From Prostheceraeus crozeri (Eukaryota; Platyhelminthes; Polycladida; Euryleptidae), in the NCBI GenBank assembly GCA_907163375.1, contig CAJQUW010014378.1:217766-281765 (forward strand): DNA of 64,000 bases. Direction: 5' to 3'. The translations under genes were made by a program, and so were the position numbers. The first letter of the stretch is position 1. Each line of letters begins with the position of its first letter. The notes under the pieces are model-generated. The model worked only from the letters and a program-made list of their open reading frames with translations, searched no databases and was not told where the DNA came from. Positions 26,792-63,575 of the stretch are shown one piece after another.

Positions 26792-27041
26792 AGTAATGGG
26801 CAAAAGACCGTTCCAGGACACCATAAAATCAAAAAAATTAGTATCTTTAAAAACGACATAAATTTATGAATTTAGTCCCTTTTTCAGGTTTTTAAGACCT
26901 AAATTCATGAATTTAGTCCATTCAAAAAGTACCATTTTTGAAAAAATGGTACTTTTTTAAAAACGACATAAAGCTCCTCTGGCTTAAGCCGATTCATGAA
27001 TTTGAACCCTTTTTCAGGTTATGAAGACCTAAATTCATAAA

Positions 27042-27071
27042 TCGGCTAAAGCCAAAGGAGCTTCGCTCCGA
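27042..27071 (+). repeat. Double-hairpin element, type CGGCT/GGAGC
   Basis: CGGCTaaAGCC and GGAGCttcGCTCC hairpins in a 28-bp core, flanked by AT on both sides. Polinton 2 has the uninterrupted sequence ATAAATTTGGGCG at the matching place (about 51218), an empty site. The mirror copy in the right TIR is at 46215-46244. Confidence 0.85.
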
Positions 27072-27301
27072 TTTGGGCGTTTTTAAAAATACCCAATTTT
27101 CAAATTTTTCAAAATCTCAAATTTGTGATTATGACATTTTCCACCCTTAAAATCATGACCGTTCCAGGACACTAAAAATTATAAAAGTTGAGAATTTCAA
27201 AATTTGTGATTATGACATTTTTACTCCCGTCAAAATCATGACCGTTCTAGGACACCGAAAAAATCATAAAAGTTAAGAATCTCAAATTTGAGAAATACAA
27301 T

Positions 27302-27329
27302 CGGGCGAAGCCCTAGAACCTCTGGTTCG
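27302..27329 (-). repeat. Double-hairpin element (GAACC/GGGC type) in left TIR
   Basis: The 28-bp core reads CGGGCgaaGCCC, TA, GAACCtctGGTTCG and is flanked by AT on both sides. Polinton 2 near 51280 has the corresponding sequence without it. Confidence 0.88.
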
Positions 27330-27457
27330 ATTTTTCACCCTTAAAATCATGACCGTTCTAGGACACCGAAAAAAATCATAAAAGTTAAGAATCTCCAGAG
27401 TTATCCATCTTTCAGGTTTTCAAAATATATCATGTGACTAAAAATATTTCTTTAAAA

Positions 27458-27713
27458 ATGGATGAAACAAAAGTGGAAGGAACCGCAAGAATATATCCTT
27501 CATTATCATATGAAATGGATATTGCAAAACACAAAGATAGAGTACGTTATATGAAAGATAAAGAATCTCAATTATTACTTAGATTAGAACATTATAATAA
27601 ATTAAGAATGTGACACAAGCCGTTGGAGCATGTTTAACAATTTCTTTAGGCGCTCTCACCATTGTCATTTCATCTGGCGTTCTTACAATTCCAGTAGTTG
27701 CTACAGCTTTGTG
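27458..27713 (+). pseudogene. Truncated TIR copy of the Polinton membrane-protein gene
   Basis: The ATG at 27458 opens a 51-codon frame (ETKVEGTARIYPSLSYE..) ending in TGA at 27611-27613. It is the 5' part of the gene at 45853-45140. Relative to that gene it has lost the SSTLM segment and has a deletion and frame change after KLR; the next frame continues with NVTQ and GALTIVISSGVL, then similarity ends at the inner TIR edge. A remnant created because the TIR covers the start of that gene. Confidence 0.8.
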
Positions 27714-27868
27714 ATACAATTAGATTTTAGTTGTACGTTAGGGAAGTTGTTTTAATTCAAGCACGTCAGCACAATCACATGACGCCAAAGCATCTGGCAG
27801 CTGTTTTCAATTCTCTCTCTCTCCTGTCATTGTTCCGTGTGCGCTAGAAAGCAAAGTTCTCATTTGAA

Positions 27869-28567
27869 ATGTCTTCCGTCAGCAAACTAGAGAGAGAATT
27901 TTGTTGCTTCGTGGATCAAGTTGTGCCTCTTATTTCACCAGACCATATGGATTTCTTCAAAACGATAACAACAAATTTTATCAATGAATCACTAAGAAAA
28001 AAACAGAAGACGAGTGGAAACGAAGAAGATAAAAAGAGAGAAGTGTTTGAAATAATCCGAGATTCATTCAAGGATGTTGACAGCAGCAATTTACCTGTAA
28101 TTCTCGAGAAAAAGGATATTATAAGTACATCATCGTGCATATCTTCATTGAATAAACTCATTGGTTTTGAGAAAATTACACATCGGAATCTTCTACGCTG
28201 CTATGTTTTACAAGGAGAAGTGCTTCAGCGACTGAAGTTATTGTCTAATATGAATTATACAAAATTCGTGAAAGAGTTAAATGAGACCCACAAAATAAAG
28301 TTTTCACGTTCATATATAACATTATTAATCAAATTGTTCAAAATGTCAAGACATTATCCAAATTTAGCTAATTCCTCCTTATCGATTCATTTTGTGATGA
28401 AGCATTTTACATATCTGGAAGATTTCATTGATCATGAGAAAGAAGAAGAAAAGCGAAGATTAGCGGAATCCATATTTGATTCATCCAATGTGCAACAAAC
28501 TGAACAACAACCTACTGGTCTAACGCAGGAATTTGAAGACTTGGAAATGTTGGACTCTACTTCATAA
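27869..28567 (+). CDS. Polinton protein of unknown function (232 aa)
   Basis: First full gene inside the left TIR. The protein is largely alpha-helical and charged. Residues 30-60 are lysine-rich (LRKKQKTSGNEEDKKRE). The middle part has FSRSYITLLIKLFKMSRHYPNL, a segment reminiscent of helix-turn-helix-like regions in viral proteins, and the C-terminus is acidic and glutamine-rich. No catalytic motif is visible. It is the first of two plus-strand genes, with the protease 164 nt downstream. Its last codons and 3' flank are duplicated in tandem. I do not recognise the family with confidence; a DNA-binding or regulatory role is only a guess. Confidence 0.7.
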   Translation: MSSVSKLEREFCCFVDQVVPLISPDHMDFFKTITTNFINESLRKKQKTSGNEEDKKREVFEIIRDSFKDVDSSNLPVILEKKDIISTSSCISSLNKLIGFEKITHRNLLRCYVLQGEVLQRLKLLSNMNYTKFVKELNETHKIKFSRSYITLLIKLFKMSRHYPNLANSSLSIHFVMKHFTYLEDFIDHEKEEEKRRLAESIFDSSNVQQTEQQPTGLTQEFEDLEMLDSTS

Positions 28568-28775
28568 GTAACAAGTAGTAACATTTATTGCAATTTATTT
28601 GACTGAAGACTGAAAAGTGACAATGGACGTTGGCAATTTGGATTTCTGTTTTTCATATAAATGTTGGACTCTACTTCATAAGTAACAAGTAGTAACATTT
28701 ATTGCAATTTATTTGACTGAAGACTGAAAAATGACATTTTCAAATTGGATTTTTGTTTCATTTAAAATGACTGAC
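28546..28775 (+). repeat. 115-bp tandem duplication
   Basis: Positions 28546-28660 and 28661-28775 begin with the same ATGTTGGACTCTACTTCATA and stay nearly identical for about 100 nt. The unit covers the end of the 232-residue gene and its 3' flank, placing a second stop-codon context before the protease gene. Confidence 0.85.
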
Positions 28776-29192
28776 CTGATCGAGTTTTTTAAATTATATG
28801 GAACAGACACAACAACGAATTTCGACCTAAAGAAAATCGCACATCAATTGGGAATAAAGAATTTTTATGTCCTAATGAGAGACGAATTACAATTGATCAA
28901 AAATAAGCCAACTGTAAATTTCATAACGAATCTTCACACTTCAGACCAAAACGGCGTACATTGGTCAGCAGGTATCTTTAGTAAAAACGGAGATAATTAT
29001 TATTTTGACTCATACGGGCTTCCACCTACGAATGAAGTAAGAGCAATACTTGGCAATGGAATTTATAATACATTTCAAATTCAAAAACCGGGAACAACTT
29101 ATTGTGGACAATTATGTTTATACGTTTTGTACAAATTACAAAAAGGAGTACCATTTCTAGATATTATGTTAGAATTGAACAATGATAATTAA
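28731..29192 (+). CDS. Adenain/Ulp1-like cysteine protease (capsid maturation)
   Basis: Polintons encode an adenovirus-type protease thought to process virion proteins. The triad is visible: His77 in GVHWSAG, Asp93 in YYFDSYG, and Cys129 in YCGQLCLYVLY, in the right order and spacing. The likely true start is Met13 (at 28767), since the first 12 residues are encoded by the tandem-duplicated flank; from there the protein is 141 residues, slightly shorter than adenain. It lies on the plus strand and its stop overlaps the end of the convergent integrase gene by 4 nt. Confidence 0.88.
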   Translation: MTFSNWIFVSFKMTDLIEFFKLYGTDTTTNFDLKKIAHQLGIKNFYVLMRDELQLIKNKPTVNFITNLHTSDQNGVHWSAGIFSKNGDNYYFDSYGLPPTNEVRAILGNGIYNTFQIQKPGTTYCGQLCLYVLYKLQKGVPFLDIMLELNNDN

Positions 29193-30553
29193 AGCTCGGT
29201 TTTCTGTAATTCGTTTTCATAGAATCTACCTTTGATATCCTCATTATCTAAATCTATAATTTCATAAGTAAACGGATAAGTTTGATTTATTTTAGAAACT
29301 TCAAATATCTCTTTAGTCCAATAGCCTACGAAGCCCTTTTCAAATTTGTTCTTATATTTAAATATTCGCACTCTATCTCCAATCTTGAATTTCGGCTTAC
29401 GTTTCTGCAAATTCGGATTACTCTCATTCAAATTATTATTCTCGAATATTTTCTTTCGTATTAAATCAGGGTCGTCAGAAGCATTCTTTGGGGTTTCTTC
29501 AATACCTGAATGAACTTTATTATTGTACTCTTCTACAACTCCTGGTAATATCCTCAACCATTTCTGATTTCCTTGCTGAGTAAACTTTTTGAAAATTTTA
29601 TTTTTTAACGTCCGATTGAATCTTTCTATCACTACAGCTTTTCCTGCGTTTTCAGTTGAATAAACAGTTTCAAATAGTGGCTGAACGTTTCGGTTATAAA
29701 ATTCCGATCCTTTATCAACAAACAATTTTTTTGGCTTTCTATTACTTTCTTTAAAGATTTCTTCAAACGCATATTTAACTGATAGACCACTTTTATTTTT
29801 TAAAGGCTTTACCCAAGCATATCGTGTATATAAATCTATAACGGTCAATGCGTATTTATAATCCCTTTCATTCGGCATATGAATAAGATCAGCACTCCAA
29901 ATATCATCTTTATTAAATACTTTTACTTTTAATAAATATTTAGGCTTTCTATATTCTTTATGAATTTCAGACGCATAGCGTCCTAGGTCATTCGACATTG
30001 CAGACGCGTAGGTTCGAGCGTTGCTCTCAGACAGCTTTGCTGTTGTTTCATTTAAACCCTGGCCGAATAATATTTTAGCTTGTAAAGCTTTCTTAACAAA
30101 CATTCTTTCAATTTTTTCTCTAAATGTAGGATTTTGAATACTATCTAATTCTTGTATCATCTTCTTATCAGCTGCATGTCGAGAACTTAGATCATGATTT
30201 CGATAAGCTAAATCATGCCTGTAAGCGGCGGCATCTACTCTATTTATTGGTTCTTCACCTGGTTTCGGATTATTATTCTCATCTAGTCTTATATCTAATC
30301 GAGTTCCTGGACCAGTATATGAATGACCAGGAAGATGTTTCTCTTTCGAATATTTACTCCAAATAAATCCAGGAAAGTTTTCTAATGTTTTTTGTATATC
30401 ACCACCGAAGTGGTGTGGAACTTTGTTCTTGTCACCTCCAATATGCTGACAGTTTGAGTTTTTATTTTTGTTTAATAGATAATTTAATAAATCTAAATTA
30501 GCAATTTTTAATTTAATTAAATTTTCTGAATTTGTGGAATTTGCGGTATCCAT
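29189..30553 (-). CDS. Phospholipase A2-like domain fused to retroviral-type integrase (454 aa)
   Basis: Residues 70-125 match the parvovirus VP1-type phospholipase A2: calcium loop YTGPGT, then the catalytic HDLAY (His113-Asp114). Such domains breach endosomal membranes during virus entry. Residues about 197-320 are an rve integrase core: WSADL (Asp222), FVDKGSEF (Asp280), VIERFNRT (Glu310), followed by a C-terminal SH3/chromo-like segment (KIGDRVRIFKY). Polinton integrases normally stand alone. Two oddities: no clear N-terminal HHCC zinc finger precedes the core, and the second Asp to Glu distance is 29 residues between, not the usual about 35. The fusion could be a genuine two-domain protein or the scar of a deletion that joined a capsid-entry gene to the integrase. 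Confidence 0.85.
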   Translation of the reverse strand: MDTANSTNSENLIKLKIANLDLLNYLLNKNKNSNCQHIGGDKNKVPHHFGGDIQKTLENFPGFIWSKYSKEKHLPGHSYTGPGTRLDIRLDENNNPKPGEEPINRVDAAAYRHDLAYRNHDLSSRHAADKKMIQELDSIQNPTFREKIERMFVKKALQAKILFGQGLNETTAKLSESNARTYASAMSNDLGRYASEIHKEYRKPKYLLKVKVFNKDDIWSADLIHMPNERDYKYALTVIDLYTRYAWVKPLKNKSGLSVKYAFEEIFKESNRKPKKLFVDKGSEFYNRNVQPLFETVYSTENAGKAVVIERFNRTLKNKIFKKFTQQGNQKWLRILPGVVEEYNNKVHSGIEETPKNASDDPDLIRKKIFENNNLNESNPNLQKRKPKFKIGDRVRIFKYKNKFEKGFVGYWTKEIFEVSKINQTYPFTYEIIDLDNEDIKGRFYENELQKTEL

Positions 30554-30586
30554 TTTAAAAGATAAAAATAAAAGTTTTACCGAAAA

Positions 30587-30613
30587 GAACCAAAGGTTCT
30601 GAGGTTATTACCT
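30587..30613 (+). repeat. Double-hairpin element, type GAACC/AGGTTA, supplying a stop codon
   Basis: GAACCaaaGGTTC followed by AGGTTATTACCT. The stop codon of the minus-strand gene ending at 30608 lies inside it (TAATAA on the minus strand). Confidence 0.75.
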
Positions 30614-31093
30614 TATCATACTAGGACTTAGATATATTCCAGAACCATCCTTAGTTTCTTTAATTTCAATTAAATCATCAACATTGTGGAGAATATTTTT
30701 AAGAACTCGTTTTCCTTCATCAACTAAATTTAATTTACTAATAAAATTATCTACTACTCCTTCTCCCCTAGCAACTTTCTCTAACTCTCTATTATGTCGT
30801 TTTTGTTCTTCTAATGCTGCCTTCTCTGATTTATTTTTATTTACTGCTTGAACAATACCAGCTGTCCCACCTGCAACACTTCCTGCAGCTGCTATGCCAC
30901 CTATTATTAGTGGAATTAATGGGAGAATCCCGCCATTCTTTTCTTCTTGTAATTGAATATTCTCTATCATTGGTTTACTTATGTAATACTTTTTTTTGTT
31001 TATCGTAATAGTTTTAGGGGTATTTTTGTCAACAATATTACGTAATTTTAATTCAACAGTTTTATTATTAATATTACTTTTCGCTTGCGACAT
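30608..31093 (-). CDS. Polinton membrane-active virion protein (161 aa)
   Basis: The protein has a basic N-terminus, a hydrophobic glycine/alanine-rich stretch (GILPLIPLIIGGIAAAGSVAGG, about residues 55-77), then a charged helical part (AVNKNKSEKAALEEQKRHN) and ends with SGIYLSPSMIR. This layout recurs in Polinton genes next to the capsid genes and recalls adenovirus minor virion proteins that act on membranes. It sits between the integrase fusion and the major capsid gene on the same strand. The stop codon comes from a double-hairpin element. Function is inferred from layout and position only. Confidence 0.7.
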   Translation of the reverse strand: MSQAKSNINNKTVELKLRNIVDKNTPKTITINKKKYYISKPMIENIQLQEEKNGGILPLIPLIIGGIAAAGSVAGGTAGIVQAVNKNKSEKAALEEQKRHNRELEKVARGEGVVDNFISKLNLVDEGKRVLKNILHNVDDLIEIKETKDGSGIYLSPSMIR

Positions 31094-31246
31094 TTTTAAT
31101 AAAAAAATTTTAAGTTATCAAAAATTTAAAATCTATTCTAGTTATGAAAAAATTTCAAGTTACTAAAAAATTTTAAGTTACCAAAAATTTTAAGTTACAT
31201 AAAAAAATAATTAATTAATCGACGAAGTCTTGGGCTTTAGCCGAAC

Positions 31247-31274
31247 GGACCAAAGGTCCTCAGGTTACTAACCT
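31247..31274 (+). repeat. Double-hairpin element, type GGACC/AGGTTA, supplying the capsid stop codon
   Basis: GGACCaaaGGTCC followed by AGGTTACTAACCT. The TAG that ends the major capsid gene (31268-31270) lies within the second hairpin and is followed by TAA in frame. Confidence 0.78.
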
Positions 31275-32602
31275 ATCCTAACCATCTTTCCATTAAGAAT
31301 TTCAATAGAATATTTTGCATCTTCTAGCAATAAACCATAAGCCATCAATGAAGTTGTGGAATCTTTCTTTTCAATATTAATTGTTACATCACAACCATTT
31401 TTAATAATATCTTCAGATTGTGCACTTAAATCGAAACAGAAAATTGGATATAAATGTCTCCAATCTCCAGGAGTTAATTGTGGTTCAACTCCAAATTCTA
31501 TACAAAGATTTCTATAAGAATCATATCCTTCCATAAATTGATTATTGGTATCATCGAATCTTAGTGGATCAATTGGATATCGGGTTTGATTTAATGAAAC
31601 TTGTAAACTTCGAATTGTATTAATATGGAAGAGATTATTGTTCTTATCAAAACTTGGAGAATTATTTCTTTGAAATGTTAGTAATAAATATCTTGGAGTA
31701 TTCGCAGTTCTAGTAAAATGCCAGTTAAATCTTTGTTCGGAAAAAGTTACTGAACTAGCAGTACGCTTTAGAAAATTTACTGGAATTGGTTTGTTAGTAT
31801 TTAATCTTTTTGCAATAGCTGTTTCAATCTCTAAACTAGGAGTAATATGCTTAATCCACCATTCAAGTCTATCAATTTTTAAATATGCTTTTTTTCCAGT
31901 CTTGCCAAAAAAGATTAATTCATTATTTGCTGTACGATGAATTATTAATTTAAATTTTAATTGATATGATATTTTATCATAATCTAAATAACCGAATAAT
32001 GGAGACAATGACCAATTTACTGTCTGTTTACTTTTTTTGTTAAATTCACGTCTTTCTTTATATGCTTCATTATTTGTTTTATTTAAATGTTTTGCAATAT
32101 TTTCTACATCTTTCGCAATTCCTGCGGCATCTGTTCCAGCGTGAGTTAAATCATCAATAATTATACCATCATTAGTATCAGGAAACCAACCTTCGATTTC
32201 ATGCTTTTTATTATTTTCACCAATTGTTATAAATCTAAGCATTGTATCAATTATACCTGGGGAATCACTTATTGTTTCTATATTTTGAGTTGCAACATCT
32301 AAACGCATTTGTGTAAATAAACTTGGGAAAAAATTATTCTCTAGTGTAATATTATCGGTATCTGGTAATGGTGTTGTAAAATTAGCATCACTATATAAAG
32401 AATATTCACAGTGTAAAAATGAATCAGGTAAATATAAATAACTCTGTTGATTATCAACTTCAAAGATTAAATCTCCTCCAGTGTTTACTCTACTGGAAGA
32501 TCCGGGATTCATAGCAATTCTTATATAGTCATTCTTTTTTTGATTGTAACTGGTGAACGGGGGATCATCTAATCTAAATTTATTTTCGATAAGCGAAGAC
32601 AT
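31268..32602 (-). CDS. Major capsid protein, double jelly-roll (444 aa)
   Basis: The protein forms the hexon-like capsomers predicted for Polinton virions. Evidence is length, position in the minus-strand morphogenesis block, and family-typical stretches, especially TRYPIDPLRFDD..FMEGYDSYRNLC and DWRHLYPIFCFDLSAQSE near the C-terminus, where Polinton capsids share a YPI(F)xFDxSxQSE signature. It is intact, unlike many genes of Polinton 2. The corresponding gene of Polinton 2 would lie outside the window. The C-terminus (MVRIG) is defined by a stop within a double-hairpin insertion, so the ancestral end may have been different. Confidence 0.85.
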   Translation of the reverse strand: MSSLIENKFRLDDPPFTSYNQKKNDYIRIAMNPGSSSRVNTGGDLIFEVDNQQSYLYLPDSFLHCEYSLYSDANFTTPLPDTDNITLENNFFPSLFTQMRLDVATQNIETISDSPGIIDTMLRFITIGENNKKHEIEGWFPDTNDGIIIDDLTHAGTDAAGIAKDVENIAKHLNKTNNEAYKERREFNKKSKQTVNWSLSPLFGYLDYDKISYQLKFKLIIHRTANNELIFFGKTGKKAYLKIDRLEWWIKHITPSLEIETAIAKRLNTNKPIPVNFLKRTASSVTFSEQRFNWHFTRTANTPRYLLLTFQRNNSPSFDKNNNLFHINTIRSLQVSLNQTRYPIDPLRFDDTNNQFMEGYDSYRNLCIEFGVEPQLTPGDWRHLYPIFCFDLSAQSEDIIKNGCDVTINIEKKDSTTSLMAYGLLLEDAKYSIEILNGKMVRIG

Positions 32603-32718
32603 TTTTATAAGAAATAATTTGACTTTTTGTTTTTCTCACAGATAGAAAAAAATTTTTATTAAATATAATTTTAAAATTTTACTAAAAAAATTACTAAAAA
32701 ATTTACTAAAATATAATT

Positions 32719-33228
32719 TTAGAATTTTGCTAGACCAGCTCCGCTACAGCTTTGCTGGTTAGACCGAAGGTTGCTGCTCACGCCATTACCTCTTATTTCT
32801 TCAATTGTTTTTTCATTATGTTTACTATCAGACGGAGCTCCGCTCCTCAAGGTTTCCCCAACAGCTATGTTAGCAATTTTGTTTTTTGTTTCATCTGAAA
32901 GTTTTTTTAATTTTTTTAGTTCTTCAGAATCATTCTTGAGTTTACGAATAGCTTCTAGTTGTTTTAATTCGTTTTGTGATTTAACAGCATTTGATATTGC
33001 ACTAGCTGTACTACCTATAGCAGCTGCTCCTTTTGCAGCAGATGTAATCAAATCTTTATTATTTTTAATTAAGTTAACGATACTACCAATACCAGAAAAG
33101 ATTCCATCCCCTTCTTTTTGAACGGTTTCTCTATTATCATAATGGTAAACCGGATTCATACGTGGTTCATGAGCAATTTTTTGATTTGAAGCAAATTGTT
33201 TAAGATTGTGTTTATAAATTATAGGCAT
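32719..33228 (-). CDS. Polinton minor virion protein, pVI-like layout (169 aa)
   Basis: Short basic N-terminus, then GDGIFSGIGSIVNLIKNN and an alanine/glycine-rich amphipathic stretch (AAKGAAAIGSTASAIS), followed by a charged coiled coil (residues about 85-120). The layout resembles adenovirus pVI/pX-type membrane-lytic or core proteins. A close copy starts at 63576 in Polinton 2 on the opposite strand. The C-terminal 25 residues (QQSCSGAGLAKF) are encoded by GC-rich palindromic DNA (hairpin ACCAGC..GCTGGT at 32734-32759), absent from the Polinton 2 copy, so the end appears to have been rewritten by an insertion. Confidence 0.7.
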   Translation of the reverse strand: MPIIYKHNLKQFASNQKIAHEPRMNPVYHYDNRETVQKEGDGIFSGIGSIVNLIKNNKDLITSAAKGAAAIGSTASAISNAVKSQNELKQLEAIRKLKNDSEELKKLKKLSDETKNKIANIAVGETLRSGAPSDSKHNEKTIEEIRGNGVSSNLRSNQQSCSGAGLAKF

Positions 33229-33268
33229 TTTTTAGTAATAAATTTGACTTTTGGGAAAAATATAAATA

Positions 33269-33323
33269 CGGGCGAAGCGCGAAGCCCTGGAAGACATCTC
33301 CGTTGACCCATGAACCGATGTCC
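33269..33323 (-). repeat. Long double-hairpin variant 5' of the pVI-like gene
   Basis: Contains GGGCgaaGCGCgaaGCCC and GACATCtccgttgaccc..GATGTC. Nearly the same unit, inverted, is inserted in the polymerase gene at 41905-41953, and a relative is at 45878-45920. Confidence 0.8.
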
Positions 33324-33337
33324 ATTATAAAAAATGT

Positions 33338-33511
33338 TTATTTTTTGTTCTTAACTTTTGCAGATTGCGTTTTTGGTTTAACTTTATCAGGAACCAAACC
33401 TGCATCAATCATTCTTTTTATTCTATGATTTTCTTTCATAATATTTCTTTCTTTTATTAACTCTTCTAATTGTTTAATTCTTTTAAAATTATTAGCTCTA
33501 ATTTTATCCAT
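33338..33511 (-). CDS. Small basic protein (57 aa), paralogue of the N-terminus of the 42261 gene
   Basis: The frame runs from ATG at 33511 to TAA at 33338-33340 and encodes MDKIRANNFKRIKQLEELIK and a lysine-rich tail (KVKPKTQSAKVKNKK). The first 30 residues are nearly identical to the start of the 289-residue protein at 42261-43130 (MDKVRADNFKRIKQLDELIK). Shared start, position between the fibre and pVI-like genes, and an open frame argue that it is real. It may be a small basic core/DNA-condensing protein or a duplicated exon-like fragment. Confidence 0.6.
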   Translation of the reverse strand: MDKIRANNFKRIKQLEELIKERNIMKENHRIKRMIDAGLVPDKVKPKTQSAKVKNKK

Positions 33512-33671
33512 TTTTAAAATTATATACTTTTATATACTTTTATATATTTATACTTTTATATTTTTAAAAATTATATTTATACTTTTATATTTTTAAAATT
33601 ATATTTATATTTTTTATGATTCTTATTTTTTGTAGGTAAAAAATATTTAAGTTAATATTTACAATACTCGT

Positions 33672-34559
33672 TTAAGATTTACGTTTATGAATATCTAACA
33701 ACTTCGAGATAACTTTATTAATTGCCTGTTGCACTTTATCTATTGCGTCAAGTAGCGTGTGATGTACTTTAATTTCTTTTCTATTAACTTGCATTTTCTG
33801 CTGATTAATCTTCAACGCCGTTTTAAGAGCATTTAACTTAATTTTAAGAACATCTAATTGTCTTTTAACAGCATCTAACTGTTCTTTATTTTCTTTAGAG
33901 TTTTCTTGTAAATTTTTCTTTAATTCATTTTCTAAATTGATTTTAAGAGTTTTCATTTTATCAACTTTTTCATTAAGTGAGTTTACTTCATTTATTATTC
34001 TATTCATCTTTTTCATTTGTTGAGTAATTTTAGAACTCAATTCATCAACACTTTTTTGGAATGTAGTTTGTAACTGCTTTAAATTTTTTTTAATTCTTTC
34101 AGGAAGTTTTTCTATTTCATCTTCTAATTGTTCTTTTAACATTTTTATCTGATGTTTATTTTTAATGACTGCAGATTTTAAATTTATAGAAAGTAATATT
34201 AAAATTTTTGATTGTTCAGAAATCTTTTTAAAAAGTTTTGCTATATCTGCTTCTAGCTCTCTATCCTTTTTATCAAGTTTTAATAATTTTTCGTTTAATG
34301 ATTTGTCATTAAGTTTAAGCAACTTTAATTCGTTCATCAGTGGAACCAAAACATCGTTAATATATTTTTCTTTTAAATCATTGATTTGTGTATCAACATA
34401 TTGTTTATTTGTTAACTCTGTATTTTGTTGCGGAAGAATAGAAAGATGCAATGGACCAGATAAAACGTCTCCAGTTTTCATGATATAATTTTCTATCTCT
34501 ATTTCTAATTCACGATTATTCGGGATATATGCACCTCCACCAACATTTGGTAACATCAT
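33672..34559 (-). CDS. Coiled-coil fibre-like protein with phage tail-fibre motif (295 aa)
   Basis: Residues 26-55 read MKTGDVLSGPLHL followed by NKQYVDTQI, the pattern (M.GD.LSG.L.L ... A/N.KQYVD) found repeatedly in bacteriophage tail fibres. The rest is a long, almost uninterrupted coiled coil rich in Lys, Leu and Asn. A receptor-binding or spike role on the virion is plausible but inferred. It is divergent from the zinc-finger gene at 34605, with only 45 nt between the starts, so they may share a promoter region. A broken copy is at 62512-63340 in Polinton 2. Confidence 0.7.
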   Translation of the reverse strand: MMLPNVGGGAYIPNNRELEIEIENYIMKTGDVLSGPLHLSILPQQNTELTNKQYVDTQINDLKEKYINDVLVPLMNELKLLKLNDKSLNEKLLKLDKKDRELEADIAKLFKKISEQSKILILLSINLKSAVIKNKHQIKMLKEQLEDEIEKLPERIKKNLKQLQTTFQKSVDELSSKITQQMKKMNRIINEVNSLNEKVDKMKTLKINLENELKKNLQENSKENKEQLDAVKRQLDVLKIKLNALKTALKINQQKMQVNRKEIKVHHTLLDAIDKVQQAINKVISKLLDIHKRKS

Positions 34560-34604
34560 TTTTTAACAATAAAAAAATAAATTTTTCCTAATAAAAATAA
34601 AAAA

Positions 34605-35543
34605 ATGGAAATGACTCAAATTTGTCAAGTTTGCAATATGCGTTTTTTAAATCAAACACTATTATATTCTCATATGAAAAACACACCATGTGGTATGCAT
34701 ATGAATCAATTACAACCTAATAATATACAACCTAATAATATACAACCTAATAATATACAACCTAATAATATACAACCTAATAATATACAACCTAATAATA
34801 TTCAGAATAATATTCAACCTAATAATAGTATTCAGTATAATAATATTCAATCAGAGCAACCATTACAAAGATTAAAGCATTTATTTATTTCAGATAAAGA
34901 ACAAAATCTTTATACTGCTAGAATAAATACACCTAGGCAAAATACTGCTAGAATAAATACACCTAGGCAAAATAATAATAATTATTTAGCACAAAATAAT
35001 AATGTAGCACAAAATAATAATGTAGCACAAAATAATAATGTAGCACAAAATAATCCTTTTGTTCAAAATAATCCTTTTGTTCAAAATAATAATGTAGCTC
35101 AAAATAATTATATTGATAAAAATCAATTTGTTGAAAGTAATAACAAAAAAATATGTTCTGGATGTAATAAAAATATAACATCAAAAAATTTTGCACGTCA
35201 TTTAAAATTATGTGAACAACCAGAAGAGGTTAAAAAAAATAAAAAAGATAAATTAAAAGATCAGTTATGTCGTAATTGTAATAAATATTTTACAAATCAA
35301 GGAATTACTAATCATTATAATTCTTGTATAAGTTCTACAAGACAATGTACAAGTTGTCAAAATACTAAACCTAAGACAGAGTTTTATGATAGTAAATATC
35401 AGTGTAAGGATTGTTTAAAGGAAAAAGTAAAATGTAGAGGTTGCCAAAAAATTATATTAAAGAAAAATTTTCAGCGACATGTAACACTATGTCCAAAACT
35501 TAATCAACATAATAATCAACATAATAATAATAATAATTTATGA
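34605..35543 (+). CDS. Multi-zinc-finger protein with QPNNI repeats (312 aa)
   Basis: The N-terminus has CQVCNMRFLNQTLLYSHM, a C2H2-like finger start. Residues 38-70 are six tandem QPNNI repeats, then TARINTPRQN is repeated and NNVAQ is repeated four times. The C-terminal half has three to four cysteine-rich modules: CSGCNKNITSKNFARHLKLC, CRNCNKYF..HYNSC, CTSCQNTKPKTEFY..CKDC, CRGCQKIILKKNFQRHVTLC. The fingers suggest nucleic-acid binding, maybe transcription control. The repeats are AT-rich and likely arose by slippage. No equivalent is seen in Polinton 2, where this position holds another gene. Confidence 0.75.
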   Translation: MEMTQICQVCNMRFLNQTLLYSHMKNTPCGMHMNQLQPNNIQPNNIQPNNIQPNNIQPNNIQPNNIQNNIQPNNSIQYNNIQSEQPLQRLKHLFISDKEQNLYTARINTPRQNTARINTPRQNNNNYLAQNNNVAQNNNVAQNNNVAQNNPFVQNNPFVQNNNVAQNNYIDKNQFVESNNKKICSGCNKNITSKNFARHLKLCEQPEEVKKNKKDKLKDQLCRNCNKYFTNQGITNHYNSCISSTRQCTSCQNTKPKTEFYDSKYQCKDCLKEKVKCRGCQKIILKKNFQRHVTLCPKLNQHNNQHNNNNNL

Positions 35544-35581
35544 CAAAATAATAATTTATGTCAAAATAATAATAATTTATA

Positions 35582-35682
35582 TTAGTATTTCAACTAAAAT
35601 AGTTGTATTTCAACTAAAATAGTTGTATTTCAACTAAAATAGTTGTATTTCAACTAAAATAGTTGTATTTCAACTAAAATAA
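35582..35682 (+). repeat. 20-bp tandem repeat (five units), each with a palindrome
   Basis: The unit GTATTTCAACTAAAATAGTT repeats five times. Each contains the near-palindrome AACTAAAATAGTT. It lies between the zinc-finger gene and the transmembrane ATPase gene; iterons of this type could bind a protein. Confidence 0.9.
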
Positions 35683-51470: not shown

Positions 51471-51471
51471 T

Positions 51472-54825: not shown

Positions 54826-55994
54826 TAAAAATATACAAATATAGTGTTATAATATTTTTTATTTTTATTTTATGTATATATCAAATTTGACTATCTTAGA
54901 AATTAGAAAATTAAAAAGGTGAAGTAGTTATTCCATCAGGTAAAATTTTTCTTTTATCATCAAATGGATCTAATGCTAATTTATGTTCTTCTTTTAAATA
55001 CATTTTATGTTTTTTTGAATTAAGTCTATAATTACATGCTGTTTTTATTTCATTATTAAATGATACATTTTTATAATCTTGAAATGTTATTTGATTAGCC
55101 ACTGATGCCTTTGAAATTCCTTTTAATGTTTTATGTGTTTTAATATTATTAGTTATGTTATAACAATAACATTTAGATTTTAAAAATATAGCTTCTGTTA
55201 TGAAATCTTCATTTCCTTCTAATTCATCTTTTACTTTACATAAATCAGAAGGATGAATGATATCTTTTATTTTATCTATTTCTTCATCAAGTGTAGAATT
55301 ATACGGTATTGTTAATTCTAAGGAAATAGAATCGGTATCTGTAAAGTGTAATTTATAGTTTTTGCCATAAGCAGGTGCTAAATAATCATATATAAATCTA
55401 TACATAAATAGGTTAGCTAATTCTAATATAGTGAATCCTATAAAATTAAACTTATCATGTTTTACGCTGATTCGACGTAAATGTACAGCACATAGTTCAT
55501 CACTAAATCTAGTAGTTCTTTTATATGTAGGTTTCCTTGTTAAATTTTGAAACCTATCTTTATCATAAACTATTTCAATATTTTGTCTATTACGCACATT
55601 TTCTAAAGTCTTACCATAAAATGCATTATTCATTAATTTGAAGAACACGTTTCCAAAATCATCTTTATTTCTTTTAGCTATTTTACGTTTTCAATATTGA
55701 ACTCTATATAATCTTTTAACCACCTAGATTTTCTATACACTAGTTTCCGGTGAATTTTTGTGAGAATCATTCCATGTTCTAAATACCAATCTAGCATTCT
55801 TCCTTCAACAACATACTTTCCTTTATTACTTTGTGTTAACATAAGTTTTTTTGTTGGTCTGTATTTCTTAGGAATTATAGATTTTTGATAATCTGAAAAA
55901 TCTTCTATATTGGGAATTTTGTTTTCGGGACAGAAAGGAAAATATTTTGTTTTATCTTTTATTTCATCAGGGTATACTAAATCAACTTCATATA

Positions 55995-57387
55995 CAGTGT
56001 GATCATAAAGTCACTGTGGGATTACAATTCACTATACATGAAAAGTGAGTGAGTTTAAACGATAACTACTTATGAAAATGAAAAGAGCATGACTTAAAGT
56101 TTTGTTTTATGACATGAAAAGGCCGACTGAATTCAATTTGAGGTTTTCGAGTTGTCAGGATGAAAAAGGCATTATCAAGCTCTTATATGAGCATCGTAAT
56201 CAAGCACGAAATGCGATGAATTTCATACGCTCACATTTGCACACAAGTAACGCAGCTACGTCTTCTTTTTGAGGAAATTCAGGCGTATGACACTGCGACC
56301 AATCAGGATTTCGCCCTAAAGAATCTTTAATTCGACAGACTTTTTAAGAAGGTGACTGAAATCAGTTCAAAAATGGATGTTCAGCAGCGCATGTTGTTTG
56401 ATGGCAAAATTTGAATCCGTAAACCGTGTTAGAAGAGAATTACGAAATCGGAAATGGAATAATGTTCCTCATGAGAATTCCATTAGAAATCTTTTCAAGA
56501 GATTTTGTGATACTGGAGGCTTTAAAGATGCATAAAGAGGTGGTCGACCATCATTCGATGATAAGAAGCCAAAGCAAATCTCCGAGATTATTCGTAAAAC
56601 AACCCTCAACATCAATTCGCCAAGCAGCTTCAGCTACAAGCTGTTCTTACGGTTATGTTCACACTGTAGTGAGACATGATCTAGGGCTCTTTCCTAACAA
56701 ATTGCAAGTAACACAAGGGCTACACGAAGACGATTGCGAGTCAGCATGGGTGAGAGTTTACTGCAAAAAATCCTACGAAGATGAAGACTTCTTCGATAAA
56801 ATTATTTTTCGGACGAATGTTGTGGGCCGCTATGTCTCCTGATATTTCCCCTTTGGACTTTTTTGTTTGGGGATTCTTGAAAAATAAAGTGTTTGTCTCA
56901 CAACCGAGAAGTTTACAACAGCTGAAAGACAGCATTTGATCCACCAAGTTTCAGAAATCACCTCCGCATTTGCCGCAATGCCATCAGTTCTTTCCGGAAA
57001 CGACCCCAACAGTGCATTGACAATCGTGGTAAGACCGCTGAACAATGACTTTATTTTGAAATTTCTTTCTTTGGTTTGAAAAATTTTGGATCTAGATACA
57101 TAAAAGCTTAAGAAAAGTGGAGCTTTACCGAAAGTTTTCATTTAGAATTGAAATGATCCATGGATAGGAGGTAATTATATGAAATGCATGTATTTTTATC
57201 GGTCAAAATATTTAATTGAATTTAATTTGAATTTGGCAAATTGAAAAAGTCGATAATACAATTTTATGTTTTATTCATTAAATTTATGATATTGGTTAAT
57301 ACTTTATTCTTATATACACCCTCTAGGAGTTATTGAACTCTATCATATTTGGCAATTAAACCCTACAGCGACTTTATGATCACCCTG
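55995..57387. mobile_element. Tc1/mariner-superfamily element (1393 bp) inserted in the polymerase gene
   Basis: Termini CAGTGTGATCATAAAGTCAC and CAGGGTGATCATAAAGTCGC (read inward) form the inverted ends, and TA lies on both sides (55993-55994 and 57388-57389), the superfamily's target duplication. It splits the polymerase between GGTTAT and TATGAAG. Compared with Polinton 1 the site lacks two nucleotides, so a small change accompanied insertion. Confidence 0.9.
56370..57010 (+). pseudogene. Degenerate IS630/Tc1-type transposase
   Basis: Pieces in different frames show the helix-turn-helix region (VPHENSIRNLFKRFCDTGG.. then RGGRPSFDD) and the C-terminal DDE-domain end (MSPDISPLDFFVWGFLKNKVF). 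Central catalytic parts are missing or out of frame, and stops occur. Would once have mobilised the element at 55995-57387. Confidence 0.75.
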
Positions 57388-58088
57388 TATAACCATGATT
57401 ATAATTTCCATCATATGTTTTTTGATAATCAAGAATATTACACCATTCCATCTCACCTGTTGATAATTCTTGTATCATGCAAGAAGAATATAAGCTATTA
57501 AAATCATAATATAACAAATAGTTTTCTCTCATGAATTCATCAATTGCATTTTCACGTTCTACTCCTTCTCGTTTCGTTCGAAAAATTTCTAATATTTTTT
57601 CTTTTTCTTCTGGAGATAAAGGTTTCATTATTCCATAATCATCAGGATTTACTTTCTTATTATAACATTTAACATATCTATTACCTAAAACTGATGAAAC
57701 ACCACCTCTAATCCCAGATTCAAAAAATAATAATTTATCATATGTATTTTCTTTATAATGTTTAAGTTTAACATTTGTATGTTTTAATCCTGCTAACCAT
57801 GTTAAACCTGGTGTAGAATAACAATAACATGGATCTATTCCGTAATATTCTAAACACATATCACGAAAGTTTTCAAAAAGATCAGCATGGATTAATACAT
57901 CTATCTGAAGATATTTCATTGTATAATCATACATTGTTTTACAATTTAACTCTCTCCAATTTTTTTCAGCTTCTGCATAGTCTTCTTCAGATAATTGTGA
58001 TTTTTTAATGTTGATGTAAATTTATTTATTGGAGGAAGTTGTTTTTCTTCCATAATTTTATTCACAGAATAAAAATCTCCAGTTATAT

Positions 58089-58114
58089 CAGTCTTCGACT
58101 GTGATCCGCAGGCT
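58089..58114 (-). repeat. Hairpin insertion in polymerase copy 2
   Basis: A core with CAGTCttcGACTG flanked by AT-rich repeats; total insertion relative to Polinton 1 is 30 nt (10 codons, read as ACGSQSKTD plus one). Confidence 0.78.
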
Positions 58115-58489
58115 ATATACTCATACGGAAATATGCCTTTTAAAGGTTTTAAATTATATTTATTTAATATTTTACATTGTTCAGGCTTCAATGTTTTTCC
58201 CATAACATCTAATGAATAAGGAGTAAAAAATCTAAATGCATCTAAAATTCTAATACAACCTAATTGCATTGAAAAATATTCTTCTTCTCTTTTACATAGT
58301 ACATTTATTTGTTGTTGTTGTAATTTTTCAGATGAAAATAAATCTTTCATTACTAGATGGAAATCATATTTAGAAGCATTGTAGAAATATAAAGGAACAA
58401 AGTTATATTTAAATTTATTAGCATTAAGATTACAAGAATTATGTGCTGCACCTCTATATAATCCATTTAGATGATCATGATCTTTTACT

Positions 58490-58516
58490 TTGACGGCAGA
58501 GCCGTCGCTTCGCTTG
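58490..58516 (-). repeat. Hairpin insertion GACGGCagaGCCGTC in polymerase copy 2
   Basis: Adds eight codons (read RSDGSAV plus Lys) directly before the DHDHLNG zinc-patch motif; absent from Polinton 1. Confidence 0.75.
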
Positions 58517-58863
58517 TCAAGATATCTACCTCTGCCATTTTTATAATTTTTTGTAAATTCTTTTCCACAGTAATAACAATTTGTTGTTAACAATAACAAT
58601 TGTTTCATTAACAAAATTAATTTTTTCTTCATCCGTTAATGGCATCATTGGTATATTTGTTTCAAGCAATTGTGAAAAATAATTTTGCAATTCTTCTACT
58701 TTCATTGTAAACATTTCTGAACTATCTTCACCATAGTATTGATAATATCCTGATTTAAATAATTCAGGATAATTTGAATGAATGTACATTCCCCAACATA
58801 ATGGTTTTTGTTCAAATAAATATTTTTCTTTACTTTGTTCAGATGCACTTTTTTTATAATTAC

Positions 58864-58890
58864 AAACCGAAGGTTCTAGGGCTTGGCCCG
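58864..58890 (+). repeat. Double-hairpin element in polymerase copy 2
   Basis: ACCgaaGGT, TA, GGGCttgGCCC; orthologous to 39588-39615. Confidence 0.85.
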
Positions 58891-58920
58891 TATCATTTTC
58901 AGAATTATCATTTTCAGAAT

Positions 58921-58948
58921 CCGGCGAAGCCCTGGAACTTTCCGTTCG
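58921..58948 (-). repeat. Double-hairpin element in polymerase copy 2
   Basis: CGGCgaaGCCC then GGAACtttcCGTTCG; orthologous to 39530-39557. Confidence 0.82.
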
Positions 58949-60495
58949 ATTTTGTGTCATATTAACATTATATGCTTCGAAATCACAATAAATAGTAAAG
59001 GGTACTTTATTTTTCAAATAATGTCTATTATATATTAAATAATCATCTTAAGGAAAAGTATTTTCAACTGCTTCATTTTGTTGGCAATTCTCCAAATGTC
59101 TATTCATTTCTTCTTTAGTTCTAAAGCTCGTCATACATTGGAGACAAGGAAAATTATCATTATCTGAAATTTTTGTAAATATAGAAACATCTTTACACAA
59201 TATAAAATGACCCTGATAATATAATATATTCGCTTGTGCTGGTTGCTTTGTTTGTTTTAATTTTTCAAATTTATCTTTATATATTTCATGTGTTTCATCA
59301 ATTTGTCTTTGTAAATCTTTTTCAGACTGTTGATAATTTTGATTGAATATTTTCAGCTGTTGTTTATATTCATTATTATATTGTTCTTTATATTGTTGTT
59401 GACATTTTTTTAAACATTCATTTAATTCTTTATTTTCTTCATTATTTAATTCTTTATTGTCTTTATTGTCTTTATTTAATTCTTGAATCGTTTCTATCTT
59501 ATTTTGATATTTATGGCCGTATTCTTGTACTAATATTTTTGTTTGTTGTTGATAATCTGTTTTGCATTTTTGTAAACTTTCATTTAAATTTTGTAATTTT
59601 TGTTGATATTCTAAAGATAAAGATAGATAATCGGAATCATAATCATAATTATAATTACGTCCTTTATAATTATTATGATTAATCATTATCGGTGATAATG
59701 TTTTAACAACTTGAAATTTATATATGATGCGTGTAATTTTATGATGCATGTAATTTCCTCTATCATTATATACTATTTCTGATTGACATAAATTTTTATT
59801 ATTCAAATAAAATTTTTTTGAATCTGAGTAAAGTGGAGTAATTTTACCAATAGAAACATAAGTCACATTTAATTCAAAAACATTTACTTCTATTAAATTT
59901 TTATTCTTTTTATGAAACTTTTTTAACCTATTATAATCATATGGAAAATTCATGTAATCCATCAGAGAGATCAAATTCCTTTATGTATTCTTCTTTATTA
60001 TAATGACTTAGTCTCTCTTTGTGATATTCTGCAGGGATGTAAATGTGCTATAATACTCCACAGAAAACAATAATCATCTTCATTTTTTATGTTGATTATT
60101 TGTGTGTGAACTGAAAGGTAAAGGAACATAACTACCACCAGTATTATTTTTATATTTATCAATTACTATTTTCTTAGATAGTATTTTTAACAAATCTCCA
60201 ACCAGATTCACGTAACTGGGCTTCAATTATACAATTTTCTAATTTAAGTATCATTTGTTCAAATATGGGTTGTATATCATTTACATTATGAATTTCTTGC
60301 GAATTTGTAAAATGTCCTTGTATTATTTCTTCAGGAATTCCATCAGGTCCATTTTTTGTATAAAGTACTTCTACATTCATACAACAGTGAAAGATTTCTT
60401 AAATATTTTGAAAAAGTTTTTTAATACATTATAAAAAGTTTCATCGGTTTCATTATGTTCAACCGATTCATTAAATAAATATTTTATATCTGTTA

Positions 60496-60523
60496 CTGGC
60501 GAAGCCCTAGAACCTTCGGTTCG
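60496..60523 (-). repeat. Double-hairpin element in polymerase copy 2 (copy-specific)
   Basis: Core CTGGCgaaGCCC, TA, GAACCttcGGTTCG. The insertion adds exactly 30 nt compared with Polinton 1 (near 37938) and is read RTEGSRASP. Confidence 0.88.
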
Positions 60524-60612
60524 TTCCGCTTCATCGGTTTTTTTAGTTTCATCAAATTCATCTATCTCGTTAAATTCATCAGTATCGCTAAATAAATATC
60601 TTCCATCTGGTG

Positions 60613-60640
60613 CGGGCGAAGCCCTAGAACCTTCGGTTCG
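60613..60640 (-). repeat. Double-hairpin element in polymerase copy 2 (copy-specific)
   Basis: Perfect core CGGGCgaaGCCC, TA, GAACCttcGGTTCG. Adds ten codons relative to Polinton 1 (near 37863), read RTEGSRASP. Confidence 0.9.
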
Positions 60641-61020
60641 TACATGTTCATCTTCACTATTAAAAACTTTTTTATATTCCGAATGTGAATAATCATCAAA
60701 CATTTTTTTAACTTCTATATCAGTAGGTAATGTTTCTAGATAGTTTTTATAACTATTTAATTTTAATATATTTCCTTCATCAACTCGTTCTACATTTTGT
60801 AAATACAGTTTACTATTTAAATGAGATTGATAACTTCTTTTTGTTTGCAACTTTTTTTTACATAAGTTACAATAAAACTTAGTATTTTCCATTTTTTTAT
60901 TTTTTAAAGAAAAAAATTGTGTTTTAATTTTAGATATAAACATTCTAATATCAAGGTCTAGAGAGTTAATATATATTATTATATATTTCACGTTCTTTAG
61001 TTATTTTTTTTTCTTTATCA

Positions 61021-61080
61021 CATTAAGTTTTATCATATTAAGTTTTATCATATTAAGTTTTATCATATAACGTTTTATCA
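61021..61080 (-). repeat. 15-bp tandem repeat (ATTAAGTTTTATCAT)
   Basis: Four tandem units upstream of the polymerase gene start, similar in length and sequence style to the 45090-45149 array of Polinton 1. Confidence 0.8.
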
Positions 61081-61099
61081 AAAGATAATTTAAATTTAT

Positions 61100-61205
61100 T
61101 TTCACTAACTATTGATTCTTCATCATCATCATCAATTGATTCTTCATCATCATCATAAATTGATTCTTCGTCATCATAAATTGATTCTTCATCATCATCA
61201 TAAAT
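61100..61205 (-). repeat. In-frame acidic tandem repeat (ATTGATTCTTCATCATCATC)
   Basis: About five units on the plus strand encode ESI(Y/D)DDDE on the minus strand, an acidic C-terminal tail of the clamp-like gene. Confidence 0.75.
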
Positions 61206-61685
61206 TACACTTTTTGGGATTGGATACCATTCTCTTATTGGAATATCTAACTCTAAATTACATCTTTTATCTGATAATAATATAATAGAGAAAAATATTG
61301 GTCTTTGTTCTCTTTTGGAAAATTTAAGAACACCACCATAATCTGAATCACTTTTAGTTTTTTATTAAAGATGATAAAATTTTAAATTGATTAGATGTAA
61401 ATCCTAATTTAAATTTTGTAGACCAGACACATAGTTGTCGAACAGTATCTTCAACTATTCAGTCATTATTATTTTCAATTGTAAGAAAATGAAATTTAGA
61501 TAAATTTTGATTATATGTAGTATTAATATCATGTACATCAGTATGAGATATAAATTTTTCTTCACTTAAATTTTTATAATTACTTATATTTTTATAATCT
61601 TTCTTACCATTTACACCATTTTTAGATGTTTCAGAATCATCATCTATATTATTATCATCATTATTATCATAAGATTCTTTAAGAT

Positions 61686-61713
61686 CGGGCAAAGCCCTAG
61701 AACCTTCGGTTCG
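61686..61713 (-). repeat. Double-hairpin element in the clamp-like gene
   Basis: CGGGCaaaGCCC, TA, GAACCttcGGTTCG, read through in frame as RTEGSRALP. Confidence 0.88.
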
Positions 61714-62511
61714 TTTATTATGATTATGATTATGGACATTCTTAATAGTATAAGGTGTTGTCCACATATAAATTTTTTCTTGTTGAGCTAAGCCATTTAT
61801 GTAAGATTTTAATAAATTAATATTTAAATTGGAATACAATCCTATATATGTATCATCATCATATCTTTGCGGCATTTCTAATGTTTCTTGTTTATCAATT
61901 GTATCTCTATAATATACTTGACATAATAATTCTTCGTTATGCTTTTTACTCTCGATATGAATATTATATTGGTTTTGTTCATCAACAAATAATCTAATTT
62001 TTTCTTTTGAAAAGGATTTTAATTTTTTAACTAATTCTTTAATATTAATATAATTAATAATTTTAGTTTCTATCCAATCAGTATTACTAATCGGCAAAAC
62101 TGCTCTAATGAATCCATAAACATTATTATGACCTATTATAACCATATTTTCTTTATTTAATTCTACATATGCAACATCATTATATTTGCTTACAATCTCC
62201 ATAAATTTAATAAATGGATCACCTGGAAATAAACAATAGCTAGTTTCTATAGAAGGTAAACCTTTAGTCTGTTCTCTAAATATTTCGGCTTGTAATTGAA
62301 ATAAAATATTAACATCTATACATGGATTATTATTATTATTATCAAAACATTTATTTTCAAATCCCGTTGATCTCGTCGAATAAGAAGAACAGGATGATGC
62401 GGACGAATATAATTTTTTTTAATTTCCTTTATCCATTTTTTTATTTTTATTAGAAAAAAATTTATCTTTTTTATTTTTATTAGAAAAATTTTATTTTTTT
62501 ATTGTTAAAAA

Positions 62512-63345
62512 ATGATGTTACCAAATGTTGGTGGAGGTGCATATATCCCGAATAATCGTGAATTAGAAATAGAGATAGAAAATTATATCATGAAAACTGG
62601 AGAAGTTTTATCTGGTCCATTGCATCTTTCTATTCTTCCGCAACAAAATACAGAGTTGACAAATAAACAATATGTTGATACACAAATCAATGACTTAAAA
62701 GAAAAATATATAAACGATGTTTTGGTTCCACTGATGAATGAATTAAAGTTGCTAAAACTTAATGACAAATCATTAAACGAAAAATTATTAAAACTTGATA
62801 AAAAGGATAGAGAGCTAGAAGCAGATATAGCAAAACTTTTTAAAAAGATTTCTGAACAATCAAAAATTTTAATATTACTTTCTTTTAATTTAAAATCTGT
62901 TGTAATTAAAAATAAACATCAGATAAAAATGTTAAAAGAACAATTAGAAGATGAAATAGAAAAACTACCTGAAAGAATTTAAAAAAATTTAAAGCAGTTA
63001 CAAACTACATTCCAAAAAAGTGTTGATGAATTGAGTTCTAAAATTACTCAACAAATGAAAAAGATGAATAGAATAATAAATGAAGTAAACTCACTTAATC
63101 AAAAAGTTGATAAAATGAAAACTCTTAAAATCAATTTAGAAAATGAATTAAAGAAAAATTTACGAGAAAACTCTAAAGAAAATAAAGAACAGTTAGATTC
63201 TGTTAAAAGACAATTAGATGTTCTTAAAATTAAGTTTAATGCTCTTAAAGCGGCGTTGAAGATGAATCAGGAGAAAATGCAAGTTAATAGAAAAGAAATT
63301 AAAGTACAGTACATCACACGCTGCTTGACGCAATAGATAAAGTGC
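62512..63345 (+). pseudogene. Fibre-like coiled-coil protein, copy 2, broken
   Basis: Identical start to the Polinton 1 protein (MMLPNVGGGAYIP, then MKTGEVLSGPLHL and NKQYVDTQ). A TAA at 62980-62982 replaces a lysine codon, after which the frame continues to about 63310, where a frame change precedes the end (VQYITRCLTQ). Beyond it lie two double-hairpin elements before the original 3' end sequence (ACGTAAATCTTA, about 63505). Confidence 0.88.
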
Positions 63346-63408
63346 AACAATCAATTAATAAAATTATCTCGAAGTTGTTGTCCATTCACAAAAACGTAAT
63401 CTTGATCG

Positions 63409-63437
63409 GGACCAAAGGTCCTCAGGTTTACTAACCT
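63409..63437 (+). repeat. Double-hairpin element, type GGACC/AGGTTA
   Basis: GGACCaaaGGTCC then AGGTTtactAACCT, in the broken 3' end of the fibre gene. Confidence 0.8.
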
Positions 63438-63469
63438 AAAGAACCTCAGTCCAGAGGCTTTAGCCTATC

Positions 63470-63496
63470 GGACCAAAGATCCTGAGGTTATTACCT
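63470..63496 (+). repeat. Double-hairpin element, type GGACC/AGGTTA
   Basis: GGACCaaagATCC then AGGTTATTACCT; second of the two, same type as 30587-30613 and 31247-31274. Confidence 0.78.
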
Positions 63497-63575
63497 TATC
63501 ATAAACGTAAATCTTAGCGCAACATATTAACACGGTTAAATATTTTTTCCCAAAAGTCAAATTTAATCCTAAAAA

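Follow-up and report, generated by a model that had tools for sequence, protein, structure and literature searches.

The window analysed here is a stretch of 64,000 nucleotides from the flatworm Prostheceraeus crozeri (contig CAJQUW010014378.1), in which two Polintons, elements resembling double-stranded DNA (dsDNA) viruses, sit in host DNA of ~37% GC (1-26791 and 46477-50990), and both Polintons carry the short GC-rich units of two small hairpins that are the subject of this report (coordinates in Table 1). The carrier is recognised as a Polinton by its 6-bp target site duplication (TSD), its terminal inverted repeats (TIRs), beginning AGTAATGG, and its genes for DNA polymerase B (PolB), an rve integrase and a double jelly-roll (DJR) capsid; Polinton 1 also has matches to an A32-type ATPase. 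The host DNA carries a gene of animal type, the open reading frame (ORF) 48876-50429, which resembles b(0,+)-type amino acid transporters (440 bits).

At least 20 units are distributed over the two Polintons, where an earlier note on this DNA had counted at least 16. They follow a common plan of two short hairpins, with loops mostly of 3 nt and usually capped by C and G, and the length of 28 bp given in that note agrees with the commonest one (28-29 bp), although units from 22 to 48 bp occur. Family A (28 bp) consists of C, an 11-nt hairpin, TA, a 13-nt hairpin and G, and the stems of families B (28 bp) and D (29 bp) differ from those of A; between families only the C..G ends are common, D ending mostly in T. 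The window holds eleven A units, two full B units and one remnant, and four units of D type, none of them in host DNA, where the 28-mers nearest to the family units differ at 11 positions. Polinton 1 contains 31 GC-rich hairpins, where 100 dinucleotide shuffles give 6.1 ± 2.5 (maximum 13), and Polinton 2 contains 16, where shuffles give 4.1 (maximum 9); the two host stretches are at expectation (38 against 36.1 and 5 against 8.5). DNA loops of the GNA type closed by C-G are unusually stable; C(GNA)G triloops account for 8 of the 33 hairpins in Polinton 1 and 7 of the 18 in Polinton 2, whereas the 44 of the left host stretch include none. In folding as single-stranded DNA, each of A, B and D forms two hairpins (-6.1, -5.4 and -6.0 kcal/mol), with 15, 20 and 2 of 200 shuffles, respectively, folding as well as the unit. 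Searching Rfam with the units gave no match.

The units are insertions, as read from filled sites, at which a W-W dinucleotide (AT, TA or TT) stands twice, and empty sites, at which it stands once. When the two Polintons are aligned, the GC-rich inserts that emerge include net gains of 30, 46 and 51 bp on the side of Polinton 1 and of 30, 30 and 24 bp on that of Polinton 2; further units lie in diverged stretches, where this alignment splits them. The earlier note had claimed a 2-bp duplication at every site that it listed, and re-reading and alignment of all five confirmed the observation, with corrections. At 27302-27329 the unit is exact, with AT on both sides, and sister Polintons supply clean empty sites (20 of 20 junction bases in L007), but near 51280, where Polinton 2 was said to be empty, the alignment is messy. 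The site placed at 27042-27071 does have duplicated AT and is empty at 51219, the unit itself occupying 27043-27070, and the same insertion is present in the right TIR (46216-46243). Site 45878-45920 was as described, a net gain of 46 bp with TA that is empty in the left TIR and in Polinton 2. Polinton 2 is likewise empty at 41905-41953, a net difference of 51 bp, yet the duplication there reads TTA or TA and is not clearly of 2 bp. At 37973-38000 TT stands on both sides and the unit is missing from Polinton 2, where the adjacent bases have diverged.

Among loci fetched from the source genome we distinguished 14 flanking contexts for A (102 copies), of which one is a tandem artefact and another a near-duplicate, and nine for B (35 copies), all of them, in every copy, flanked by AT..AT. 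Searching with the flanks joined through a single dinucleotide returned gapless empty junctions for 8 of 15 A contexts, 6 of 9 B contexts and 2 of 8 D contexts. The junction matches at 19-20 of 20 bases in three A, five B and one D contexts, and at these nine the gain is exactly the unit plus 2 bp; they map to six separate places, and the remaining junctions are weaker or lie in repeats. By chance, two dinucleotides at a distance of 28 bp would be identical with a probability of 0.11-0.12, and would both be AT with one of 0.017. Family A flanked by TT..TT was reported in 18 copies genome-wide. In 79 scored polymerase copies the searched segment is longer by 30 bp in 23 and by 39 bp in one. All four inspected of the 23 hold the same 28-bp two-hairpin unit (family E, found solely through this length), flanked by TT at either end where a single TT stands in the window, and the 39-bp gain contains a 37-bp unit with AT on both sides at a place where the window reads TT. 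Presence or absence of units varies among Polinton copies that are 96-98% identical in the polymerase segment. With at least four families of one two-hairpin plan at unrelated sites, and with exact empty sites having one dinucleotide and filled sites two, the mobility suggested by the earlier note is upheld, and the units are almost certainly mobile insertions. Several of 61 gap clusters in the sister alignments proved to be tandem repeats or poor alignments and were not counted as sites.

The search of the source genome (2.05 Gb) that the earlier note had recommended returned, at up to 3 mismatches, 12,974 matches to A (26-base core), 4,525 to B, 5,653 to D and 1,353 to E, against none for the reversed-pattern control of each family. 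The copies are biased to Polintons: Polinton-similar DNA was present at 74 of 74 sampled loci (some overlap), with 28 of 28 for exact A (again with some overlap), 18 of 18 for TT-flanked A, 8 of 8 for D and 20 of 20 for B, where it lies within 80 bp of the unit at 18 loci and elsewhere in the same kilobase at two. The four polymerase loci served as the sample of E. Polinton termini number 7,620, corresponding to ~3,800 elements and, if each is full length, to an estimated ~3.7% of the genome. The sampled copies lie in Polintons and not in a mitochondrial location, the host mitochondrial genome not having been searched on its own. The Polinton load appears young as well as large, the 79 scored polymerase segments being 96-100% identical and one having an internal stop. 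Public virus contigs contained no match to the A, B and D patterns, and prokaryote genome contigs none to that of A. Among virus contigs PolB identified one distant related Polinton locus (L001), and capsid and ATPase none; the hairpins of L001 number 25, where shuffles give 11.5 ± 2.8, but are of a style different from that of the window units. At the end of this contig (15282-15490) lies a ~58-bp tandem array with two adjacent GC-rich hairpins per repeat.

Hairpin modules are exchanged at fixed sites. At the 45878 site 17 sister sequences are empty, and others combine much the same right hairpin with differing left modules, the net lengths across sisters being 30, 31, 32, 38 and 46; at 43077 and 53089 units are merged in series. 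Adjacent B and D units have one AT in common, as is expected if one inserts in the duplicated dinucleotide of the other.

Insertion is also tolerated in frame within coding sequence, the PolB ORF of Polinton 1 staying open across four units. As PolB insertions with clean unit ends measure 24, 30, 36, 39 and 51 bp, all multiples of three, whereas the net length of non-coding units need not be, the reading frame is probably kept by selection, helped by the sum of 28 + 2 = 30 and by stop-free frames, which are four of six in A and likewise in B. The exceptions are a B unit shortened by a 31-base gap in sister L032 and the merged cluster at the end of ORF 42261-43130, the contents of which are 31, 67, 68 or 75 bp. 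At the sites that they cover (some begin past the first), seven aligned PolB homologues are without the inserts, and the insert peptides were found in none of the 20 PolB homologues searched. Such insertions are a route by which a viral polymerase gains in-frame inserts.

Based on our data we tentatively propose, as the best explanation, that the units are structure-defined and non-autonomous and are parasitic on Polintons. Some activity would make a staggered opening of 2 nt in Polinton DNA at a W-W target, a unit of 28-29 bp would be copied into this new place, and fill-in would put the dinucleotide on either side of it; such an opening and fill-in are suggested by the 2-bp W-W duplication. 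Copying would occur during extrachromosomal replication of the Polinton, when the strand-displacing polymerase would bare single strands in which hairpins may fold. The confinement of the units points to replicating Polinton DNA, and chromosomal DNA would be spared because copying is tied to this extrachromosomal replication. The plan common to families of differing sequence points to recognition of the fold. Aligned without gaps, E differs from A at nine positions, four in loops, four forming two compensated pairs and one breaking an outer pair (p ~0.006 by simulation for the two pairs, a post hoc choice). From these features we infer recognition of single-stranded hairpins, coupling to replication, and copying rather than cut-and-paste. 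The units then diversify through exchange of single hairpin modules at fixed sites and through insertion beside one another. It is conceivable, though open to doubt, that we deal with a transposable class defined by its fold and not by its sequence. Such 28-mers of two hairpins, with loops frequently of the C(GNA)G type, would exploit the replication of an endogenous virus, would insert into viral DNA alone and would be translated in frame as ten codons; if so, fold-defined units could spread within essential viral genes at little cost.

Several observations weigh against our proposal of fold-defined parasites. Apart from the rve integrase, no nuclease was recognised in the scanned Polinton ORFs. 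Helicases of Polinton-like viruses are reported to carry GIY-YIG and HNH endonucleases, and the polymerases of polintons homing endonuclease domains (PMC11071308); none of these was recognised in the scanned ORFs. Among 200 shuffles, 102 and 117 fold as well as units 41903 and 45877, which have no advantage, and 44 and 52 as well as units 58493 and 58089, the advantage of which is slight; a longer unit in L109 likewise folds no better than many shuffles. As no compensated double change occurs inside family A among 22 distinct 28-mers, the case for selection on the fold is that of E against A. Seven of the 15 A contexts, three of the nine B contexts and six of the eight D contexts yielded no empty site; unequal flanks are the majority state in 4 of 12 A contexts and are seen in half of the copies of one more. 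Except for TT-flanked A, of which all 18 reported copies were taken, the sampled loci come from the first-listed contigs and are non-random. Finally, AT flanks the unit in 9 of 9 B contexts but in 3 of 10 A contexts (assigned by eye, p 0.003) or, with clean flanks only, in 3 of 7 (p 0.02; the contexts are not fully independent), and a flank that depends on the family is not expected of one enzyme with one preference.

That B is always at AT and A at AT, TA or TT is better explained by template switching, the main rival, which involves no dedicated enzyme: during Polinton DNA synthesis the growing end would jump, by way of a W-W match of 2 nt, to a hairpin unit of another single strand, copy it and return at the matching dinucleotide beyond it. 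Template switching needs no coded mover, yields a gain in copies, and accounts for neighbouring units with a single AT and for module swaps at fixed sites as well as for the family-specific dinucleotide (B 9 of 9 AT, A mixed). We nevertheless consider it unlikely, as varied microhomology lengths and co-copied flanks should result, whereas the nine best junctions gain exactly the unit plus 2 bp, and as family A uses all three dinucleotides. Filled and empty alleles across thousands of near-identical Polintons can tell staggered insertion from template switching. The W-W duplications, and the presence inside Polinton 2 of a TA-flanked ~1.4-kb element with inverted ends, would also suit ultra-short miniature inverted-repeat transposable elements (MITEs), mobilised by a transposase, of the Tc1/mariner type or another, that recognises sequence, duplicates 2 bp of target and comes from the host or a neighbouring element. 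This is improbable, since no terminal sequence beyond C..G is common to the families (D is mostly T-ended), AT and TT are duplicated besides TA, at variance with the TA-only duplication of the Tc1/mariner type, and the sampled copies are all in Polintons. A role in Polinton function, in which non-selfish hairpins are kept as transcript ends or as replication or packaging signals, agrees with the location of some near gene ends and in TIRs and with the excess of hairpins, of other style, in the distant L001; it is very improbable, as presence and absence differ among such closely related copies and several units lie inside the polymerase ORF. Some GC-containing alignment gaps are indeed tandem repeats and some sites lie in repeats, but the thousands of matches against none in reversed controls, the unrelated flanks and the exact empty sites leave assembly error, tandem slippage or chance palindromes a negligible likelihood. 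Assembly error, slippage and pure signal function were rejected as main explanations.

Other features of the window were noted alongside the units. The PolB gene of Polinton 2 is split at ~55998-57408 by the ~1.4-kb element, the short ORFs of which matched no family above its cut-off, and the PolB ORF of Polinton 1 stops at ~42080-42100, before the end of several homologues, which run on. A 454-aa ORF (29189-30553, minus strand) combines a phospholipase A2-like domain match (residues 71-151) with an rve integrase core (216-293). Tandem repeats of 15 bp (34674-34853) lie within ORF 34605-35543, a 20-bp tandem array (35559-35718) follows directly past it, and 78 bp are directly duplicated at 28545-28736 (99% identity, 114-bp spacing). 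The host DNA includes two reverse transcriptase ORFs, 6888-8831 and 15017-15961, both on the minus strand.

Table 1. Carrier Polintons, hairpin units and places of the best empty junctions, in window coordinates.
Feature	Position	Strand	Remarks
Polinton 1, complete	26792..46476	.	TSD AGTTTC at 26786-26791 and 46477-46482
Polinton 2	50991..64000	.	inverted relative to Polinton 1; runs past window end
PolB ORF, Polinton 1	37625..42100	+	1491 aa; four in-frame units
Family A, left TIR	27302..27329	+	double hairpin; TSD AT
Family A, right TIR	46041..46068	-	TSD AT; site equivalent to 27302
Family A, PolB	37973..38000	-	TSD TT; in frame (RTEGSRASP)
Family A, PolB, decayed	39530..39557	-	AT flanks; in frame; no empty site found
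Family A, PolB	39588..39615	+	TA flanks; in frame (QALEPSV)
Family A, Polinton 2	53089..53116	-	counterpart is merged cluster 43077 of Polinton 1
Family A, Polinton 2 PolB	58863..58890	-	site equivalent to 39588
Family A, Polinton 2 PolB	58921..58948	+	site equivalent to 39530
Family A, Polinton 2 PolB	60496..60523	+	empty allele has TA; matching place of direct repeat also holding 60613
Family A, Polinton 2 PolB	60613..60640	+	TSD TA (left copy now TG)
Family A, Polinton 2	61686..61713	+	AT/TT flanks
Family B, left TIR	27043..27070	-	double hairpin; TSD AT
Family B, right TIR	46216..46243	+	TSD AT
Family B remnant	26972..26991	.	20 bp; full AT-flanked copy at equivalent site in L068
Family D	31246..31274	+	C + 28 nt; adjoins capsid gene end
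Family D-like	30587..30614	+	6 mismatches
Family D, Polinton 2	63408..63436	+	
Family D, Polinton 2	63469..63497	+	
Longer unit, PolB	41904..41951	-	GACATC..GATGTC module + GGGCTTC(A/G)CCC; net 51 bp; TTA/TA duplicated; 36-bp alleles in sisters
Longer unit, right TIR	45878..45921	+	net 46 bp; TA; swapped-module alleles at this site elsewhere
Longer unit between ORFs	33269..33322	+	
Merged cluster	43077..43143	+	several hairpin modules; overlaps end of ORF 42261-43130
Short two-hairpin unit, Polinton 2 PolB	58493..58516	+	24-bp insertion
30-bp insertion, Polinton 2 PolB	58089..58118	+	AT(AT) flanks; one clear hairpin, second weak or absent
Empty-site place, TIR	near 27302		
Empty-site place, TIR	near 27043		
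Empty-site place, TIR	near 26972		
Empty-site place, early-PolB repeated stretch	60496, 60613		two A contexts at matching direct-repeat positions
Empty-site place, AT-rich tandem stretch in PolB	near 39014-39054		two B contexts
Empty-site place, B/D array	adjoining 31275		one B and one D context

The byps of Magnusiomyces mitochondria are short hairpin insertions within genes that are skipped by ribosomes. Unlike byps, the PolB inserts described here are multiples of three and the window ORF is open, so that plain translation suffices. No description of such elements in Polintons was found among the papers listed by searches of open-licence PMC, as represented by titles and the beginnings of abstracts; the cases that we found described are mitochondrial, plastid or bacterial, together with related repeats in the nuclear DNA of Volvox, whereas here the carrier is a dsDNA virus-like element. 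The earlier note had compared the units in form with yeast mitochondrial GC clusters and, among others, with Rickettsia palindromic elements (RPE), and both likenesses hold, the latter for in-frame insertion. RPE are palindromic units in frame inside protein genes, but they are bacterial and ~150 bp long (PMC10969869), whereas the present units measure 22-48 bp and have two separate hairpins and 2-bp duplications. The double-hairpin elements of Allomyces and the repetitive hairpin elements of sponge mitochondria resemble them in their tandem hairpins and scattered distribution; the Allomyces elements are mitochondrial and, as described, without the flanking duplications present here (PMC2800124). 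The short palindromic repeats of Volvox similarly form hairpins, in organelle and nuclear DNA and in both orientations, but their loops are frequently TAAA/TTTA, and the main text of that report contains no word that starts with 'duplicat' (PMC2670323).

The GC clusters of yeast mitochondria (GC42 and its kin) are, like the units here, short GC-rich hairpins in AT-rich DNA with a short flanking direct repeat (AG or ACT there, 2-bp W-W here), and they show presence/absence polymorphism as well as merger and shuffling, as at sites 45878 and 43077; they differ in being mitochondrial, mostly intergenic, of 32-42 nt (rows of Table 1 in that paper) and in their target letters (PMC4478555), whereas the units here reside in the Polintons of a 2-Gb assembly, use W-W targets and in several cases lie in frame in the polymerase gene. 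In the same yeast work the spread of protein-less GC-rich hairpins is still termed poorly understood (PMC4478555), and the question becomes testable here, given clean empty sites, a multitude of alleles and matches in the tens of thousands. The nearest known behaviour is that of the yeast mitochondrial GC clusters, but with a dsDNA virus-like element as the carrier.

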